From: Nitrospira sp.
GTDB lineage: Bacteria > Nitrospirota > Nitrospiria > Nitrospirales > Nitrospiraceae
Length of the DNA stretch: 64,000 nt
Reading direction: 5' to 3'
Assembly (NCBI GenBank): GCA_024998565.1
Contig: JACOEM010000001.1
Coordinates: 456,485 to 520,484 of the forward strand
The notes beneath the pieces were generated by a model. That model was not told where the DNA came from, made no database searches, and saw nothing but the letters and a program-made list of their open reading frames with translations. Below, piece by piece: positions 45,433 through 55,768 of this stretch; the first letter of the stretch is position 1; the number at the start of each line of letters is the position of its first letter. A program made the position numbers and the translations under genes.

Positions 45433-48400
45433 TCAGGTCGAGGCCGTGCGGGGCCCTTGATTGTTGGTACCACAGACGTGGAGGGTTTGCAAGGTTGCGT
45501 TGAGTTCTGGAAAGACCAAACTCCAGTCGTCATGCGGTATCTGGAGTTCAAAAGACAGCGGCGACAGAAACCGTAGTCGTTTCTTGTATCGGTCCATCAG
45601 GGCTTGCACGGCGGTTTCGGAGACCGTGGCCTTGGGATCGAAGGTGATTACGACCGCATGCGGTTGCTCGACCACAGAGCTCAGCCGGAGCTGCTTGGCC
45701 AACAGCCGGATTTGCATGAGCTCGAACAAACGCTCGACCGGATCGGGCGGATGCCCGTAGCGGTCTTCGATCTCTCCGTGCATCAGGGCCAGGTCGCCGA
45801 GTTGTCCGCAGGAGGATAGTCGTTTGTAGAGCGACAGGCGCTGGTGGCTGTCGGCCACGTACTCTTCGGGAATATAGGCGGAGACGCTGAGACGCAGCTC
45901 GGGATCCGGTTCTTCCTCCACGACCTGACCCTTCAGGCGTTGGACCGCCTGTTCCACCATTTGCAGGTAGAGATCGAGCCCGACGGCGGCAATATGGCCC
46001 GATTGCTGTTTGCCGAGCAGATTCCCCGCACCGCGAATTTCAAGATCCGCTGCGGCGATGCGGAAGCCCGATCCCAATTCGGTAAACTGTTGGATGGCGG
46101 TCAGCCGCTTCTGGGCATCGTCCGAGAGGTTGCCTTCATCCGGCACCAGGAAGTAGGCGTAGGCCTGTTCGCCGCCCCGGCCGACCCGGCCGCGGAGTTG
46201 ATAGAGCTGGGCGAGTCCGAAGGTGTCGGCGCGATTCACGATGATGGTGTTGGCGGTCGGCACGTCGATGCCCGATTGGATAATGGCGGAGGCGATCAGA
46301 ATATCCGCTTCCCGGTGGAAGAATTTCAGCATCACGGCTTCCAGCGGTTTCGAGTCCATCTGGCCGTGTGCCATCACGATGCGGGCTTCCGGCACCAATT
46401 CCTGGAGCCAGGCGCCCATCCGCTCCATGGTTTCTACCCGATTGTGAACAAAGTAGGTTTGTCCCCCTCGGCCGAGTTCGCGGAGAATCGCCTCACGGAT
46501 CGCCTTTTCGCTGAAGCGAAGGACTTGGGTGCGGATCGCCAGGCGTCCCGACGGGGGCGTATCGATGATCGAAAGGTCGCGCACACTCGCCATGGTCATT
46601 TGTAATGTGCGTGGGATCGGAGTCGCGGTCAGGGTCAACACATCGACTTGGGTGCGCAGCTGTTTCAGCCGTTCCTTATGTTTCACGCCGAACCATTGCT
46701 CTTCGTCGATGATGACGAGGCCGAGGTTGCGGAACTTCACGTCTTTTTGGAGCAGCCGGTGGGTGCCGATGAGGATATCGACCAGGCCGGCTTCCGTATC
46801 CTTGACGATCGCTTTCGTATCCTTCGGAGACTGAAAGCGTGACAGCAGGGCGACGCGAGTCGGAAAGGGGGCAAACCGTTCGGCGAAGTTGTCGTAATGC
46901 TGGTGGGCGAGCAGCGTCGTCGGCACCAGCACGGCCACCTGTCGATTTTCCTCGACGGCCTTGAACGCCGCCCGCATGGCGACTTCGGTCTTGCCGTAAC
47001 CCACGTCGCCGCAGACCAGGCGATCCATCGGCTTCGTGGAGGCCAGATCGTTGGCAATGTCTTCGATCGCCTTGCGCTGATCGACTGTTTCTTCGTATTC
47101 GAAGGCCGCTTCGAACTCGTGGTAGAGCATGCTGTCTTTACCGTACGAGGTGCGATGGACGAGCTCCCGGTTGGCGTAGAGATCGACGAGCTCGTGCGCC
47201 ATTTCTTCGATGTCTTTCTTGACCCGCGCGGTCGTTTTGGCCCAGCTGGTGCCGCCCAGGCGGTCCAGGCGGGGGACATGGGCATCCGCCCCCGCATAGC
47301 GTTGGACCTGGCTGAGTCGATCGAGCGGCACATAGAGCTTGTCGGTCCCCGCGAATTCCAGCACCAGAAAGTCGCTGTCGAAGTCTTGCACCGAGAGCCG
47401 ACGCAGCCCCTGATACTTCGCGATGCCGTATTGCATGTGCACGACGTAGTCGCCGATGTTCAGATCTTCCAGCGAGGAGAGGAAGGTGGCGGCCTTGCTC
47501 TTGGGCTGCGGTTTATGGCGGGCGCCTTTGGCGAAGAGTTCTTCTTCGGTGAGGACCACCAGCCGCAGATCGGGGGATAGAAAACCGGCCGACACTTCGC
47601 CGTTCAAGACCGAAAACGGCGCCTTTTGCGCGCCGCCGGCCGAGAGTGCCGAGGGCTTCCATTCCATCGCCGGTCGATCATGCTCGCCGAATAACGCCAG
47701 CAAGCGGCCGACCTGGCCCTGGCTGCGGGCGACCAGGACGACCGGTCCGGCTTCGCGCAAGCGATCGAGTACCTCCAGCGTATGGCTGAATGCGGTGCCG
47801 CGTTGACCGAGCCCCACGCTGGCTGGTGTTTGAGCCGGGCAGGTCAGCACCGGGTCCCAACTCGCGTCCGGTGCGGTGACCGGCTCAAGCGCGAGCGTGG
47901 CGTAGCCTTGGGTGGCGGCGAGGATCTGATCCCACGTGAGGTACAGGTTGTCCGGTGTGGGGTAGGGATTCGGATCCGTGCGATCTTCGTGACGCAGGAA
48001 TCCTTCCTCGATGGCTTGCCAACATTCTTCCGTGTGGGCCTTCAGCGTGCCGGGTTGATCCAGGACCAGCACCGGCGGCCGAGGGAAATAGTCGAGGAGG
48101 CTGTCCATGGTCCCGTAGACCGATGGGGCATGCCATTCAGCGTCGGCGGCCAGGGGCGCGAGGGCATCGGGTGCGTCCTCGGGGCGAATCAATTCGCGGG
48201 CCGGCAGCACCCAGGCCTGCTTGATCTTGTCGGTCGATTTTTGTGTGGCCGGATCGAAGAAGCGGATCGACTCGATCGTGTCGCCGAGAAACTCCACCCG
48301 TAGCGGGTCGGCATAGGCGGTCGAATAGATATCGACGATCCCGCCGCGAATGCTGAACTCACCGGGAATTTCTACCACCGATCCCTTCCGGTAGCCCAAC

Positions 48401-48906
48401 CGCAACAGGCTGGACACGAGCACTTCCCGCTCCAGGGAACCATCCGGTCGAAACTGCAGAATCGCGTCGGTGAAGACCAGGGCCGGCAGGACCCGCTGCG
48501 TTAAGGCCGGGACGGAGGTGAAGAGCACCGTGCGCGCCGTGGTGCAGAGGCGGTTGAGCGTCTGCATGCGGCGGGCCACCAGATCGATGTGGGGGACCGT
48601 CGATTCATAGGGCAGCGTTTCCCATTTCGGGAAGAGTGCGAGATCGTCGACGGACTGCCCGCAGAGGGTTCGGAAAAACACCGTGTCGCGATAGAGGCGT
48701 TCCGCCTCGTCATCGTTTTTGGCGACGATCAGCCAGGAACGGTCGGCCAGGGGCTGAGATGGCAGGCTGTGTGTGAGGAGCGCCAAGCCGAAGCCGGCGG
48801 TCGACCCATGCAACCCCATGAGGCAGGGTTTGCCCGAGCTGCTGCGAAGGGCTTCTCGCGCCGGCGCGAGCCACTGAGTCAGATGTAGCGGGATCAGGGG
48901 AGGCAC
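45433..48906 (-). CDS. mfd: Transcription-repair coupling factor Mfd
   Basis: 1157 residues, the family length. UvrB-homology module at the N-terminus, CarD-like RNA-polymerase interaction domain (LNIGDYVVHMQYGIAKYQGL), then helicase motifs: GDVGYGKTEVAMRAAFKAVE (Walker A), VIIDEEQWFGVKHKERLKQL (DEEQ), TLTATPIPRTL, and the RecG-like TRG region. It removes stalled RNA polymerase and recruits UvrA. GTG at 48906 has AAGGA about six bases upstream and lies 7 bp after the rfaE2 stop. Confidence 0.97.
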   Translation of the reverse strand: MPPLIPLHLTQWLAPAREALRSSSGKPCLMGLHGSTAGFGLALLTHSLPSQPLADRSWLIVAKNDDEAERLYRDTVFFRTLCGQSVDDLALFPKWETLPYESTVPHIDLVARRMQTLNRLCTTARTVLFTSVPALTQRVLPALVFTDAILQFRPDGSLEREVLVSSLLRLGYRKGSVVEIPGEFSIRGGIVDIYSTAYADPLRVEFLGDTIESIRFFDPATQKSTDKIKQAWVLPARELIRPEDAPDALAPLAADAEWHAPSVYGTMDSLLDYFPRPPVLVLDQPGTLKAHTEECWQAIEEGFLRHEDRTDPNPYPTPDNLYLTWDQILAATQGYATLALEPVTAPDASWDPVLTCPAQTPASVGLGQRGTAFSHTLEVLDRLREAGPVVLVARSQGQVGRLLALFGEHDRPAMEWKPSALSAGGAQKAPFSVLNGEVSAGFLSPDLRLVVLTEEELFAKGARHKPQPKSKAATFLSSLEDLNIGDYVVHMQYGIAKYQGLRRLSVQDFDSDFLVLEFAGTDKLYVPLDRLSQVQRYAGADAHVPRLDRLGGTSWAKTTARVKKDIEEMAHELVDLYANRELVHRTSYGKDSMLYHEFEAAFEYEETVDQRKAIEDIANDLASTKPMDRLVCGDVGYGKTEVAMRAAFKAVEENRQVAVLVPTTLLAHQHYDNFAERFAPFPTRVALLSRFQSPKDTKAIVKDTEAGLVDILIGTHRLLQKDVKFRNLGLVIIDEEQWFGVKHKERLKQLRTQVDVLTLTATPIPRTLQMTMASVRDLSIIDTPPSGRLAIRTQVLRFSEKAIREAILRELGRGGQTYFVHNRVETMERMGAWLQELVPEARIVMAHGQMDSKPLEAVMLKFFHREADILIASAIIQSGIDVPTANTIIVNRADTFGLAQLYQLRGRVGRGGEQAYAYFLVPDEGNLSDDAQKRLTAIQQFTELGSGFRIAAADLEIRGAGNLLGKQQSGHIAAVGLDLYLQMVEQAVQRLKGQVVEEEPDPELRLSVSAYIPEEYVADSHQRLSLYKRLSSCGQLGDLALMHGEIEDRYGHPPDPVERLFELMQIRLLAKQLRLSSVVEQPHAVVITFDPKATVSETAVQALMDRYKKRLRFLSPLSFELQIPHDDWSLVFPELNATLQTLHVCGTNNQGPRTAST

Positions 48907-48913
48907 AATATCC

Positions 48914-49396
48914 TTACGCTGTCGTGGAGCGAATACGTTGCACCAGCGTGGTCGTCGACACGCCGGGAACGAGTGGAATGGTCTGGACGCGTCCGCCGCG
49001 GGCCTCGACCGTTTCCCGTCCCACAATCCGATCGACGGACCAATCTCCGCCTTTGACGAGAATATCCGGTTGGAGGGTTGCGATGAGGGCGCCGGGGTCC
49101 GGTTCCGAAAAGATCACTACATAGTCCACGCAGGCTAACGCAGCGAGAACCTCGGCTCGCTGGGTATCGGGCACGATGGGGCGGTCGGTGCCTTTATTCA
49201 GGGCGCGCACGGACTCGTCGGAATTCACGCCCACCACCAGCGCATCCCCCAGATCGCGGGCTGCTTGCAGATACCGGGTATGGCCGATGTGCATCAGGTC
49301 GAAGCAGCCGTTCGTGAAAACGATACGATGTCCCTGCCGACGGTGCTCATTCAGCCGTGAGGCAAGCTCTTGTCGCGTGGTGATCTTGGTGTGCAT
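48914..49396 (-). CDS. rfaE2: D-glycero-beta-D-manno-heptose 1-phosphate adenylyltransferase
   Basis: 160 residues, matching the C-terminal half of HldE as a separate protein. FTNGCFDLMHIGHTRYLQAA contains the HxGH nucleotidyltransferase motif. ADP-heptose synthesis also needs GmhA (present at 52338) and a kinase (not in the window). It begins the minus-strand run with mfd; the two genes are separated by 7 bp. Confidence 0.95.
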   Translation of the reverse strand: MHTKITTRQELASRLNEHRRQGHRIVFTNGCFDLMHIGHTRYLQAARDLGDALVVGVNSDESVRALNKGTDRPIVPDTQRAEVLAALACVDYVVIFSEPDPGALIATLQPDILVKGGDWSVDRIVGRETVEARGGRVQTIPLVPGVSTTTLVQRIRSTTA

Positions 49397-51355: not shown

Positions 51356-52354
51356 TCAGCGGCCGGACAACTCTTCAATGACCGCGGCGGCCAGCAATGG
51401 CACCATGATCTCGTGGTGGCCGGTCAATGCGTATCCCTTGCCGCCCTTCTGGGTGGGTCTGCGCACGACATTGGTCATGGGGCGATAGTGCGAGAGGAAG
51501 TCCATATTGACCGTGGTGATGTTCGTCAACGGATGACCAAGGTTGCGTCCGAGCGAGACGGCTTTCAGGAAGACCTCCGGCAGGATCACGGCTGACCCCA
51601 GATTGAGATAGACCCCGCCTTCCATTTCGGAGACAACTGCGGCCAGGCGGCGAAAATCGAGCAGCGAACCCGCCCCGATCGCGGCGCCGTCTGCGGACGG
51701 ATGCATGTGAATGATGTCGGTTCCGACGGCCACGTGCACGGTGACGGGAAGGCCCAGCCGGAATCCGGTGGCCAGCAGGCTGGTGGCGCGATGTGGGAAC
51801 AGTTGTTTCCGTCGATGAATATAACTGCCGAGCGATTCGCCAAGCCCCTGACCTTCTTTCATGCCCAGGGTGATGGCTTCATTCAGCATGCGGCCGGTTT
51901 CTTCCGCCATGCCGAATCGGCCGGAGTCGATCTCCGCGTCCACTTCTTCGGACGTGTGCCCCATAAACGCGAGTTCGAAGTCATGGATGATGACCGCTCC
52001 GTTCATGGCGAGAGCGGTGACGATGCCGCGTTCCATCAGGTCCACGAGGAGCGGGCCGAGCCCGACCTTCACGACGTGGGCGCCCATGCCAACGATCACC
52101 GGCCGGCCGTTGCGATGGGCTTTGGCAATGGCCTGCGCCACTTCGCGCAACGTTTTGACCGCCAGGATATCGGGGAGTGAGTCCAGAAACCGCGCGAACG
52201 AGCGACCCTTCGTCCAGACCTTGGCAAAGTTGGAGACCTGCACCTTGCTGTGTCGGCGCTGGAGCGGATAGGTCTTCAGGCGCGACGCATCGATCGGCCG
52301 GATGATCGCGGGGGGCGTTGATGCTGCAGTGGGGCGCTTACGCCGGGTTGGCAA
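51356..52354 (-). CDS. Deoxyhypusine synthase-like protein
   Basis: About 332 residues. Rossmann-like GRPVIVGMGAHVVKVGLGPL, AFMGHTSEEVDAEIDSGRFG, VAVGTDIIHMHPSADGAAIG and GGVYLNLGSAVILPEV resemble the deoxyhypusine synthase fold, but I do not see that enzyme's active-site Lys motif. Bacteria lack eIF5A, so the substrate must differ, perhaps a polyamine such as homospermidine. The start is uncertain: TTG 52354 has GAGGAT seven bases upstream; ATG 52387 would overlap gmhA by 50 bp without a ribosome-binding site. Confidence 0.75.
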   Translation of the reverse strand: MPTRRKRPTAASTPPAIIRPIDASRLKTYPLQRRHSKVQVSNFAKVWTKGRSFARFLDSLPDILAVKTLREVAQAIAKAHRNGRPVIVGMGAHVVKVGLGPLLVDLMERGIVTALAMNGAVIIHDFELAFMGHTSEEVDAEIDSGRFGMAEETGRMLNEAITLGMKEGQGLGESLGSYIHRRKQLFPHRATSLLATGFRLGLPVTVHVAVGTDIIHMHPSADGAAIGAGSLLDFRRLAAVVSEMEGGVYLNLGSAVILPEVFLKAVSLGRNLGHPLTNITTVNMDFLSHYRPMTNVVRRPTQKGGKGYALTGHHEIMVPLLAAAVIEELSGR

Positions 52355-52916
52355 GAACGTGATCCTCAATGAGTTCGCAGAGCACATGGCCCAGCGTGAT
52401 GTGACTTTCCTGAATGCGGGCGGTCAGCGTGGAAGGCACGACGAAGGCGTAGTCCACCATGCCTGCCAGTTTGCCGCCGGTTCCGCCGGTCCAGGCGATC
52501 GTGGTGAGGCCCAGGGCTTTGGCCGCCTCGACCCCTTTCAACACGTTGGGGGAGTTGCCGCTGGTGCTGATCGCGATCGCCACATCTCCACGCTGCCCGT
52601 GTGCGCGAACTTGACGGGCGAACAGCTCCTCGAAGCCGTAGTCGTTGGCGATGCAGGTGATGGCGGCAATGTCCGTGGCGAGGGCAATGGCCGGAAACGG
52701 GGCACGTTCGCGCTTATAGCGGCCGACAAACTCGGCGGCTATGTGCGCGGCATCGGTGGAGCTGCCGCCGTTGCCGAAGAGCAAGACTTTATGTCCGGCC
52801 TGAAACGCGCCGCCGATGAGTTGCGCGACCTGCACGATTCGGTCGGCATGGTCCCGCGCGAAGCGCCGCTTGATCTCGGCGCTGTCGTCGAAGGCCTTGA
52901 TGGCAAATTCTTTCAT
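52338..52916 (-). CDS. gmhA: Phosphoheptose isomerase GmhA
   Basis: 192 residues. SIS domain with FGNGGSSTDAAHIAAEFVGR, ISTSGNSPNVL and the C-terminal ESHITLGHVLCELIE. It turns sedoheptulose 7-phosphate into D-glycero-D-manno-heptose 7-phosphate for lipopolysaccharide core. A canonical promoter ends eight bases before the ATG, so its mRNA is predicted leaderless. Its 3' end overlaps the following deoxyhypusine-synthase-like gene by 17 bp or more. Confidence 0.95.
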   Translation of the reverse strand: MKEFAIKAFDDSAEIKRRFARDHADRIVQVAQLIGGAFQAGHKVLLFGNGGSSTDAAHIAAEFVGRYKRERAPFPAIALATDIAAITCIANDYGFEELFARQVRAHGQRGDVAIAISTSGNSPNVLKGVEAAKALGLTTIAWTGGTGGKLAGMVDYAFVVPSTLTARIQESHITLGHVLCELIEDHVLANPA

Positions 52917-52970: not shown

Positions 52971-53909
52971 TTACTTTCCCGGAGATGTGGGCGAAGACCG
53001 TTTCGTGATCATATTCATCGCCAGCGTCAGCATCGAGCCGACATCCGAGACGTTGGCGGGGAGCACGAGGGTGTTGCTGGCTTTGGCCAGTTCCCCGAAC
53101 TTGGTGATGTACTGCTCGGCGACGCGCAGCTGCACGGCTTCGTAGCCGCCCGGAATTTGCGTGGATTCGGCGACTTTGCGGAGTCCGTCTGCCGTGGCGC
53201 TGGCGATGGCCATAATCGCGGAGGCTGCGCCCTCGGCCTCGTTGATCTGCTGCTGTTTCTTCGCCTCGGAGGCCTTGATGACCTGCTGCTTCTCGCCTTC
53301 CGCCTGGTTGATGGCGGCGTCGCGTTCGCCCTCGGAGGTCAGAATCACCGCGCGTTTTTCCCGTTCGGCCCGCATTTGCTTTTCCATCGCGGCCAGCACG
53401 TCTTTCGGCGGCGTGATGTTCTTGATCTCGTACCGCAGCACCTTCACGCCCCAGGGTTCCGTTGCCTTGTCCAGCTCATTCACAACCTGGCTGTTGATAT
53501 TGGTGCGCTCTTCGAAGGTGCGGTCGAGTTCGATTTTGCCGATCTCGCTCCGGAGGGCGGTCTGAGCCAGCTGCGTGATCGCAAAGCGATAGTCGCTGAT
53601 GCCGTAGGAGGCTCGCTGCGGATCCAGCACCTTGGAATAGAGAATGCCGTCGACGCCGACCTGCACGTTGTCGCGCGTGATGCAGATCTGTTCGGGAATA
53701 TCGATGGCGGTTTCTTTCAGCGAGTGTTTGTACTGCACACTGTCGAGGAACGGCCACAGGATGTGGAACCCCGCGCCGAGTGTCCGTGAGTACCGGCCCA
53801 GCCGCTCCACGACGTAAGCGCTCTGTTGCGGCACGACACGCGCGGTTTTCGAGATGACGAGCAGGACGAGGCCTGCAAGGAAAATAACAACCCAAAGTCC
53901 GCCTGGCAT
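52971..53909 (-). CDS. SPFH/stomatin-like protein (QmcA type)
   Basis: 312 residues. N-terminal membrane hairpin (LWVVIFLAGLVLLVISKTAR), the SPFH domain (YVVERLGRYSRTLGAGFHIL; CITRDNVQVGVDGILYSKVL) and a long charged coiled coil (GERDAAINQAEGEKQQVIKA). It scaffolds membrane microdomains and often modulates the FtsH protease. GGAGG lies 8 bases before ATG 53909; ATG 53924 is an alternative. nfeD lies 27 bp upstream on the same strand, the classic partner. Confidence 0.93.
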   Translation of the reverse strand: MPGGLWVVIFLAGLVLLVISKTARVVPQQSAYVVERLGRYSRTLGAGFHILWPFLDSVQYKHSLKETAIDIPEQICITRDNVQVGVDGILYSKVLDPQRASYGISDYRFAITQLAQTALRSEIGKIELDRTFEERTNINSQVVNELDKATEPWGVKVLRYEIKNITPPKDVLAAMEKQMRAEREKRAVILTSEGERDAAINQAEGEKQQVIKASEAKKQQQINEAEGAASAIMAIASATADGLRKVAESTQIPGGYEAVQLRVAEQYITKFGELAKASNTLVLPANVSDVGSMLTLAMNMITKRSSPTSPGK

Positions 53910-53936
53910 TCCGCTATCCTCCATGATGGTGCGACC

Positions 53937-54511: not shown

Positions 54512-55768
54512 ATGCCTGCGGATACTCCTGTCAAAGCGCTCATTCTGGCCTTTACCGATGCGCCGTCGCTCGCCGCCTATGTGATCAACCGGCTGCAGCC
54601 GGAATTGCTCTGCTTTTTCGTGCCGGAATCGGCGAAGACGCAGGTCGAAGAGGCGGTGCAACCGCTGGTGCAGCAGATGCCGAAACGTTGGGATTGGGTG
54701 GTGACGCCTGATCCGGCCGACGTCATCGCCTGTCATCAGGCCCTGTCACGATCTATCCACGACCTCTTTCGAAACTGGGCTGTGCAGGTGGGCGAAGTGG
54801 TCGTCGATTTGACCGGCGCCACCCCTGCCATGGCCGCGGCGCTGGCGACGGTGAGCCAACCCTGGACGTCACGGGTGATCAGTCTGGTCGATGCGGAGGG
54901 CCGCGAAGAGGGGGAGGCGATCGCGATCGGCGGGTTGACCAAGTATTGGTTGCAGGGCAATCCCTGGGATGAGTCGGCGGTCGTGGTGCGCCGTGAAGCC
55001 AGCGACGCCTTTAATCATGGTTCATTCAGAGCCGCCGCCACGCTGTTTCATACCCTGGAAGCTCGCGTGAGCGGGGGACAAAAGCCCCTCTATCGTGCCT
55101 TGGGCGAATTGGCGTTGGGGTACGGGTTGTGGGAGCAGTTTCACTACCGCCAGGCGTGGGACAAACTGAAGACCTCGTTGAAGGCGCTCGACATGGCCTC
55201 GCTCTGGGGAGGGCCGCCCGGGTTAAAGGCGCTCCTGCCGTTCATCAAGGCCAATAATGGATTCTTGGAAAAGCTGGTACTGGATCCCGCCGACGTGAAG
55301 GAAGGGGTAGTGCTCGATCTGCTCGCGCATGCCCATCGTCGCGCCCACGTGGACCATGACTATGAACGGGCCATGGTGGCGCTCGTGCGCGCGATGGAAG
55401 CCTGCGCCCAGCGGCAACTGTTCAAACAGTACAAGATCAAGTCCTGGGATGTGCAGCCGGAGCAATTGCCCGAATCGATGCGGGACACCTGCCGCACCTG
55501 TTACCTCGATGATGTGGACGGGAAGTACAAGCTGCCGTTGCAGAGTCAGTTCCGGGTATTGGCCGGTCTTGGCGATCAGATGGGGCAGGCCTTTCTTCGC
55601 GATTGGCCCAAGATGAAGCCGCTGCTCGACGCCGCCAACCATGCGGTGTTGGGCCACGGGTTTGAGGCCATCAAATCCGAGCGGGTGCAGCAACTGTCCG
55701 ATGTGGTCATGAAACTCACGGGCGTGAACGAGTCCTCGCTGCCGAAGTTCCCGAATCTGAACCTCTAA
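54512..55768 (+). CDS. Orphan CARF protein, TIGR02710/Cas02710-like
   Basis: 418 residues. The N-terminal Rossmann-like half ends in VVVDLTGATPAMAAALA (residues about 97-113), the position of the CARF motif that normally reads DxTGGTKxM and contacts cyclic oligoadenylate; here GG-K is changed to GA-P. The C-terminal half is helical and ends near residues 374-383 in AANHAVLGHG, where related proteins have an RN-x4-H HEPN RNase motif; the Arg is absent. No CRISPR array or cas gene is nearby. It may be an inactive or repurposed effector. Its stop abuts repeat B sequence. Confidence 0.78.
   Translation: MPADTPVKALILAFTDAPSLAAYVINRLQPELLCFFVPESAKTQVEEAVQPLVQQMPKRWDWVVTPDPADVIACHQALSRSIHDLFRNWAVQVGEVVVDLTGATPAMAAALATVSQPWTSRVISLVDAEGREEGEAIAIGGLTKYWLQGNPWDESAVVVRREASDAFNHGSFRAAATLFHTLEARVSGGQKPLYRALGELALGYGLWEQFHYRQAWDKLKTSLKALDMASLWGGPPGLKALLPFIKANNGFLEKLVLDPADVKEGVVLDLLAHAHRRAHVDHDYERAMVALVRAMEACAQRQLFKQYKIKSWDVQPEQLPESMRDTCRTCYLDDVDGKYKLPLQSQFRVLAGLGDQMGQAFLRDWPKMKPLLDAANHAVLGHGFEAIKSERVQQLSDVVMKLTGVNESSLPKFPNLNL

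Follow-up and report, generated by a model that had tools for sequence, protein, structure and literature searches.

The window, by which we mean the whole 64,000-nucleotide stretch of Nitrospira DNA that was analyzed, carries two overlapping genes on its minus strand. The upstream gene (positions 52338 to 52916) is gmhA, encoding sedoheptulose 7-phosphate isomerase, assigned by TIGR00441 (E value 2.6e-58; 196.5 bits, just below the cut-off of 209.45) and by the SIS_2 domain. The downstream gene (51356 to 52354) encodes a GSU2086-family protein that is a candidate substitute for HldD. An earlier note on this DNA had claimed that the second gene overlaps gmhA, and both reading frames were indeed found there. 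If the first in-frame ATG (52387) is taken as the start, the downstream frame spans 51356 to 52387 on the minus strand. However, that ATG is missing from some relatives. An in-frame TTG at 52352 to 52354, preceded at 9 nucleotides by a GAGG, is found again in those relatives whose sequence was read in the correct strand. The comparison of start codons thus suggests that the overlap is probably 17 nucleotides (52338 to 52354), not 50, giving a protein of 332 amino acids. Outside the order to which the window belongs, overlaps of 4 nucleotides were seen at three loci (L153, L160, and L177), with open reading frame starts as called. Farther downstream on the minus strand lie genes for a SprT-like protein (PF10263; 50687 to 51307), a DinB-like DNA polymerase IV (PF00817; 49486 to 50880), and an HldC-type heptose 1-phosphate adenylyltransferase, a stand-alone rfaE domain II (TIGR02199, 196 bits against a cut-off of 181.5; 48914 to 49396). 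The first two define the slot discussed below. They are followed by a gene (45433 to 49026) that its sequence suggests to be Mfd-like; judged by relatives matched to the window copy, it neighbors HldC in several other genomes as well. On the plus strand, the window also carries a TIGR02710 CARF/Csm6-like CRISPR-associated protein (54512 to 55768) near an SPFH-domain gene (52971 to 53924).

The downstream protein is a member of NCBIfam family NF052581, that of Geobacter sulfurreducens GSU2086, matching the profile over its full length (positions 1 to 301 of 301) with 449.3 bits against a cut-off of 250. The family is uncharacterized, its name giving no function, and its nearest folds are those of AgrE/ArgZ and deoxyhypusine synthase (DHS). 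The ArgZ-like Rossmann domain (PF21570), below its cut-off, was the sole Pfam match listed at 1e-3; Lar_N (PF09861), of the LarA family, was not listed at that threshold, and the Pfam DS domain (PF01916) had no match. The HldD profile (TIGR02197) was likewise not listed at 1e-3, and any likeness to HldD would be one of analogy. Weak matches in the NCBIfam scan were to PRK00770, ArgZ, and TIGR00300, the nickel-pincer nucleotide (NPN)-type ornithine cyclodeaminase, which scored 21.6 bits where its cut-off is 410.8. No match was found in phage records or in PHROGs.

A structure model built from 37 sequences (pLDDT of 78.3, pTM of 0.78) gave deoxyhypusine synthase 7cmc as its best Foldseek match (E value 2.5e-9). 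With a second aligner (VIA), AgrE/ArgZ (6lrg; Z of 20.9, 3.3 Å, 226 residues) and DHS (8put; Z of 20.4, 3.6 Å, 264 residues) were the top matches, tied within 1 Z unit. Sequence searches of the PDB were empty, both with the single protein at 1e-3 and with a profile of 23 proteins at 0.01, and kinship to DHS and AgrE therefore rests on the fold and on weak profile scores. Comparison of the profile with six TIGR00300 proteins gave a weak E value of 1.8e-4 over 193 columns, with a probability of just 48%, and aligned the HDxE and TS motifs. Despite this likeness in fold and motifs, AgrE/ArgZ shows only 17% identity to the window protein over the aligned part, and its gene neighbors differ.

The earlier note had called the gene deoxyhypusine-synthase-like and held that it lacks the active-site lysine motif. 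The fold and the missing motif were both borne out. SWGK, which we take to be the catalytic lysine motif of DHS, occurs in the DS-family gene that this genome carries on another contig; it is absent from the 23 aligned GSU2086 proteins, which also have no invariant lysine in the corresponding C-terminal stretch, as matched to DHS by sequence and not by residue-level superposition. The name itself did not hold, given the lack of a PF01916 match, the DS gene elsewhere, and the curated GSU2086 family. The family assignment, the missing motif, and the DS gene on another contig led us to reject a deoxyhypusine or homospermidine synthase. The 23 GSU2086 proteins, which come from many families of the phylum, have a mean column identity of 49%, and their invariant residues include H93, K96, H124, D125, E127, H207, D213, H216, H218, E260, K264, H313, H314, and E315. 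Most of these residues also occur in two distant plasmid-encoded relatives that share 40% identity with the window protein, but these have arginine at position 96 and lack H313 and E315.

The earlier note had held that its idea would fall if the overlap were not conserved in relatives; this check did not refute it, as the pairing with gmhA is conserved. In 76 of the 80 best-scoring loci, out of 439 relatives, the gene immediately upstream in the same orientation is gmhA; of the remaining four, two start too close to the end of a contig, and the other two stretches contain no gmhA. By their labels as given, 77 of these 80 are Nitrospira or other Nitrospirae/Nitrospirota and three are Nitrosospira or Nitrospinota, and the closest named genomes among the matches listed are Nitrospira, for example, Candidatus Nitrospira defluvii (97% protein identity). 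Outside the order, we looked at 23 loci that were picked by hand, some because their coordinates already seemed adjacent. GSU2086 adjoins gmhA at 8 of them and hldC only at one (G278), while HldC (G233) or an opposite-strand gmhA (G345) is present but not adjacent at two more. The other 12 have no gmhA or hldC near GSU2086, which in one case (G303) begins at a contig edge. At six of the eight gmhA loci, GmhA, GSU2086, and HldC are neighbors, and in five of these the Mfd-like gene follows. Heptose-gene operons with GSU2086 recur in other orders and phyla, though in many genomes GSU2086 stands apart. A 621-residue open frame in G278 that looked like a GmhA-GSU2086 fusion was rejected; no GmhA part was found in it, and its extension resembles read-through of a noncoding frame.

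Of 32 genomes searched for a heptose kinase, 29 have one over the cut-off, among them every one of the 19 that carry GSU2086. In several genomes, 20 proteins encoded close to GSU2086, to HldD, or to this kinase were scanned with Pfam; by their matches none was a further heptose gene, and one of them, beside an hldD, is a glycosyltransferase. Two loci (L048 and L049, from G004 and G008) belong to a family that has GSU2086 without a strong gmhA match, and that family may use a divergent isomerase or lack the early steps. In Geobacter, GSU2086 lies by locus number between hldE (GSU2085) and gmhA (GSU2087). In the Geobacter sulfurreducens transposon study, GSU2086 is a "hypothetical cytoplasmic protein in sugar biosynthesis operon," and the three genes have similar scores of −3.1 (hldE), −3.2 (GSU2086), and −3.7 (gmhA) (PMC5585712).

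Two plasmids carry comparable arrangements, in which the HldE-, HldA-, and GmhA-like matches are below curated cut-offs. One, from Solidesulfovibrio, encodes a GSU2086 protein (384 bits) between an HldE-like protein and a GmhA-like SIS protein, in a heptose-type operon (L178, 5381 to 8462) next to genes for pseudaminic acid. In the HldE-like protein of this operon, the adenylyltransferase part precedes the kinase part, whereas the PRK11316 profile has them the other way round. The other carries a heptose-type route in the Chloroflexota, a phylum generally without lipopolysaccharide; there GSU2086 (386 bits) lies between a HAD hydrolase and an HldA-like kinase, followed by a GmhA-like protein (L179, 6044 to 9474), behind a sugar ABC transporter.

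HldD is the enzyme assigned to the last step of ADP-heptose synthesis, a pathway that supplies heptose to the bacterial outer membrane. It is an NADP-dependent SDR enzyme: with its bound NADP+, it oxidizes and then re-reduces ADP-D-glycero-D-manno-heptose, which inverts C6''. Its distribution is nearly the complement of that of GSU2086. In 325 Nitrospirota genomes, with GSU2086 and HldD counted at curated cut-offs and gmhA at 1e-40, GSU2086 was found in 248, HldD in 44, and gmhA in 288. The genomes with gmhA comprise 233 with GSU2086 only, 36 with HldD only, 4 with both (G075, G097, G115, and G234), and 15 with neither. Four of those 15 (G152, G186, G242, and G349) have weak GSU2086 matches (E values of 1e-16 to 1e-61) that we take for fragments; eight are drafts, 66 to 87% complete, from a family in which 13 other genomes have HldD; and three of fair completeness (G273, G299, and G334) are unexplained. 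The 37 genomes without gmhA divide into 11 with GSU2086, 4 with HldD, and 22 with neither. At most six candidates per genome were scored for GSU2086 and for HldD, so a few HldD proteins could have been missed.

A sample of 146 genomes from the window's order gave a similar picture, with GSU2086 over cut-off in 121 and HldD in 12. As no gmhA there reaches its curated cut-off, a strong match was defined by an E value below 1e-45. All 124 genomes with strong gmhA have at least one of the two proteins: 113 GSU2086 only, 8 HldD only, and 3 both. The 22 without it comprise 16 with neither, 1 with HldD, and 5 with GSU2086. Fisher values are 1.5e-10 for the order and 2.4e-29 for the phylum; these ignore shared ancestry, and the two samples share many genomes and are not independent. 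Weaker HldD-like matches occur in all 146 genomes of the order. These are probably other sugar-nucleotide epimerases, which could themselves carry out the HldD step.

The 40 HldD-only genomes form ten groups, drawn by family or genus. The fourteen HldD proteins compared are 29 to 59% identical between groups, except for two genera of one family (72 to 73%) and the two genera of another (72 to 78%), and the window's own family has two unlike HldD types (41 to 44% identical). This divergence argues for repeated replacement. Three genomes (G137, G027, and G114) have the order DinB-SprT-HldD-GmhA where the window has DinB-SprT-GSU2086-GmhA. In a fourth (G108), HldD is encoded on another contig, and just after gmhA there is a match to GSU2086 residues 15 to 41 (E value 5.9e-4). 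The frame there contains the first GSU2086 codons and then, by eye, apparently its last codons and stop, and an intact relative shares 88% identity with it over the 168 bases between the end of gmhA and the break. The remnant is a GSU2086 deletion scar in an HldD-positive genome. No GSU2086 match was found between SprT and gmhA in G113. Three of the genomes with both proteins (G075, G097, and G115) may represent an intermediate stage of replacement. At three loci (L042, 5052 to 7047; L047, 5358 to 7326; and L057, 5254 to 7231, from G113, G075, and G129, respectively), a divergent member of the DS family is encoded directly against hldD or overlapping it, and in G113 this member matches PF01916 with 142 bits. 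At L042, the two genes are preceded by a TonB-receptor-like gene that scores under the cut-off of its family.

Taken with the alternation, the slot replacement and the scar make it likely that the GSU2086 protein replaces HldD, whatever its cofactor. The window protein has no match to the HldD profile at 1e-3; HldD takes the GSU2086 slot in three genomes, the two have complementary distributions, and they are proposed to catalyze the same reaction.

A clue to the cofactor comes from LarC, which inserts nickel in the NPN (PMC11770544). Of the 248 GSU2086 genomes, 238 have a LarC match at 1e-20; of the 40 HldD-only genomes, 9 do. Within the window's order the figures are 92 of 92 versus 7 of 9, and outside it 146 of 156 versus 2 of 31; since the order keeps LarC in most of its HldD-only genomes, the contrast rests on the lineages outside it. 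Six of the seven HldD-only genomes with LarC in the order have TIGR00300. Other clients of the NPN were sought in 79 of the 268 LarC genomes, picked by hand to span families; 8 have a LarA domain and 17 have TIGR00300. Both are missing from 50 of 58 genomes with GSU2086 and LarC, from 2 of 9 HldD-only genomes with LarC (G127 and G281), and from 5 of 12 LarC genomes with neither epimerase, one of which (G152) has a weak GSU2086 match. The window's genome carries LarB and LarC. It also has a cluster (L138, 2275 to 9548; G000:C1:20000-31000) of TIGR00300, arginine dihydrolase, GpsA-like, LarB, and LarC genes, and the proximity of TIGR00300 to LarB and LarC fits the NCBIfam label "NPN-dependent" for the cyclodeaminase; our literature search found no paper on NPN dependence of ornithine cyclodeaminase.

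Our best explanation, which we consider somewhat more probable than all others together, is that the GSU2086 protein is a nonhomologous HldD substitute inverting C6'' of ADP-heptose, most likely in an NPN-dependent manner. GmhA, the heptose kinase, and HldC would make ADP-D-glycero-D-manno-heptose, which the GSU2086 protein would convert to ADP-L-glycero-D-manno-heptose. A hydride would pass from C6'' to a tightly held acceptor, leaving a 6''-ketone intermediate, and would return to the opposite face. The acceptor would most likely be an NPN made by LarB, LarE, and LarC; the protein would bind it in its Rossmann fold of the DHS/ArgZ type, which has many invariant histidines. In LarA, a hydride moves from lactate to the NPN and back, with histidine residues reprotonating the product (PMC11770544). 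With NPN or NAD bound, a fold of the DHS/ArgZ type could act on ADP-heptose as LarA acts on lactate; the cofactor and hydride-transfer chemistry proposed are the same, but the GSU2086 substrate would be a sugar nucleotide and not a 2-hydroxy acid. Substrate, product, stereochemistry, and catalytic residues are likewise our proposals. The link that the earlier note drew between this fold and heptose synthesis stands in substance, without its deoxyhypusine label; the alternation with HldD and the tracking with the nickel-pincer genes had been missed.

An HldD substitute might instead use bound NAD(P)+ as the acceptor, as in DHS and the AgrE crystal structure, with the LarC association inherited or serving another protein. 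The fold neighbors were solved with NAD according to their structure titles, that of 6lrg with ornithine naming NAD+. Moreover, ten of the 248 GSU2086 genomes have no LarC match at 1e-20. Completeness is 91% or higher for six of the ten (G153, G229, G239, G294, G326, and G331), so NPN may not be obligatory. However, the near absence of LarC from HldD-only lineages outside the order, together with the many GSU2086 genomes in which LarC has neither of the two other clients sought, makes this version unlikely.

It is also rather improbable that the GSU2086 protein acts at another heptose-pathway step, for example, by epimerizing C6 of heptose 7-phosphate or of heptose 1-phosphate, or that it yields a different stereoisomer, so that HldD becomes unnecessary. 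Its place beside gmhA would suit such a role, as would the Chloroflexota plasmid operon, where kinase, HAD, and GmhA-like proteins are present and no adenylyltransferase was recognized among the proteins scanned. Yet hldD alone takes the slot while gmhA stays, which is simplest if HldD and GSU2086 carry out the same step. A noncatalytic partner of GmhA or HldC that stabilizes the pathway would account for the tight coupling to gmhA, but with His, Asp, Glu, Lys, and Arg invariant at so many positions, at a mean column identity of 49%, and with the slot taken over by an enzyme, it is very improbable. The earlier idea of a polyamine- or hypusine-type enzyme coupled to lipopolysaccharide synthesis, which has the shared DHS fold and the weak PRK00770 match in its favor, is scarcely credible without PF01916 or SWGK, with a separate DS gene in the genome, and with the HldD alternation left unexplained.

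Replacement of HldD by the GSU2086 protein is a new proposal for this family; our literature search found no paper that proposes it, none that treats deoxyhypusine synthase together with heptose, and none that describes a nonorthologous replacement of hldD. In its fullest form, which we hold by a narrow balance, the family would consist of ADP-heptose 6-epimerases that depend on NPN. They would form a new class of NPN enzymes, distinct from LarA and with a sugar nucleotide as substrate, and would replace HldD in most Nitrospirota and probably in Geobacter and others. Among the gmhA-bearing Nitrospirota sampled, 233 of 288, including nitrite-oxidizing Nitrospira, have GSU2086 in place of an HldD over cut-off. 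Nevarez and colleagues state that about 15% of the genomes analyzed lack larA although they have larB, larE, and larC, which points to NPN-binding proteins of other kinds (PMC11796402). The GSU2086 family is a candidate for one such missing NPN client.
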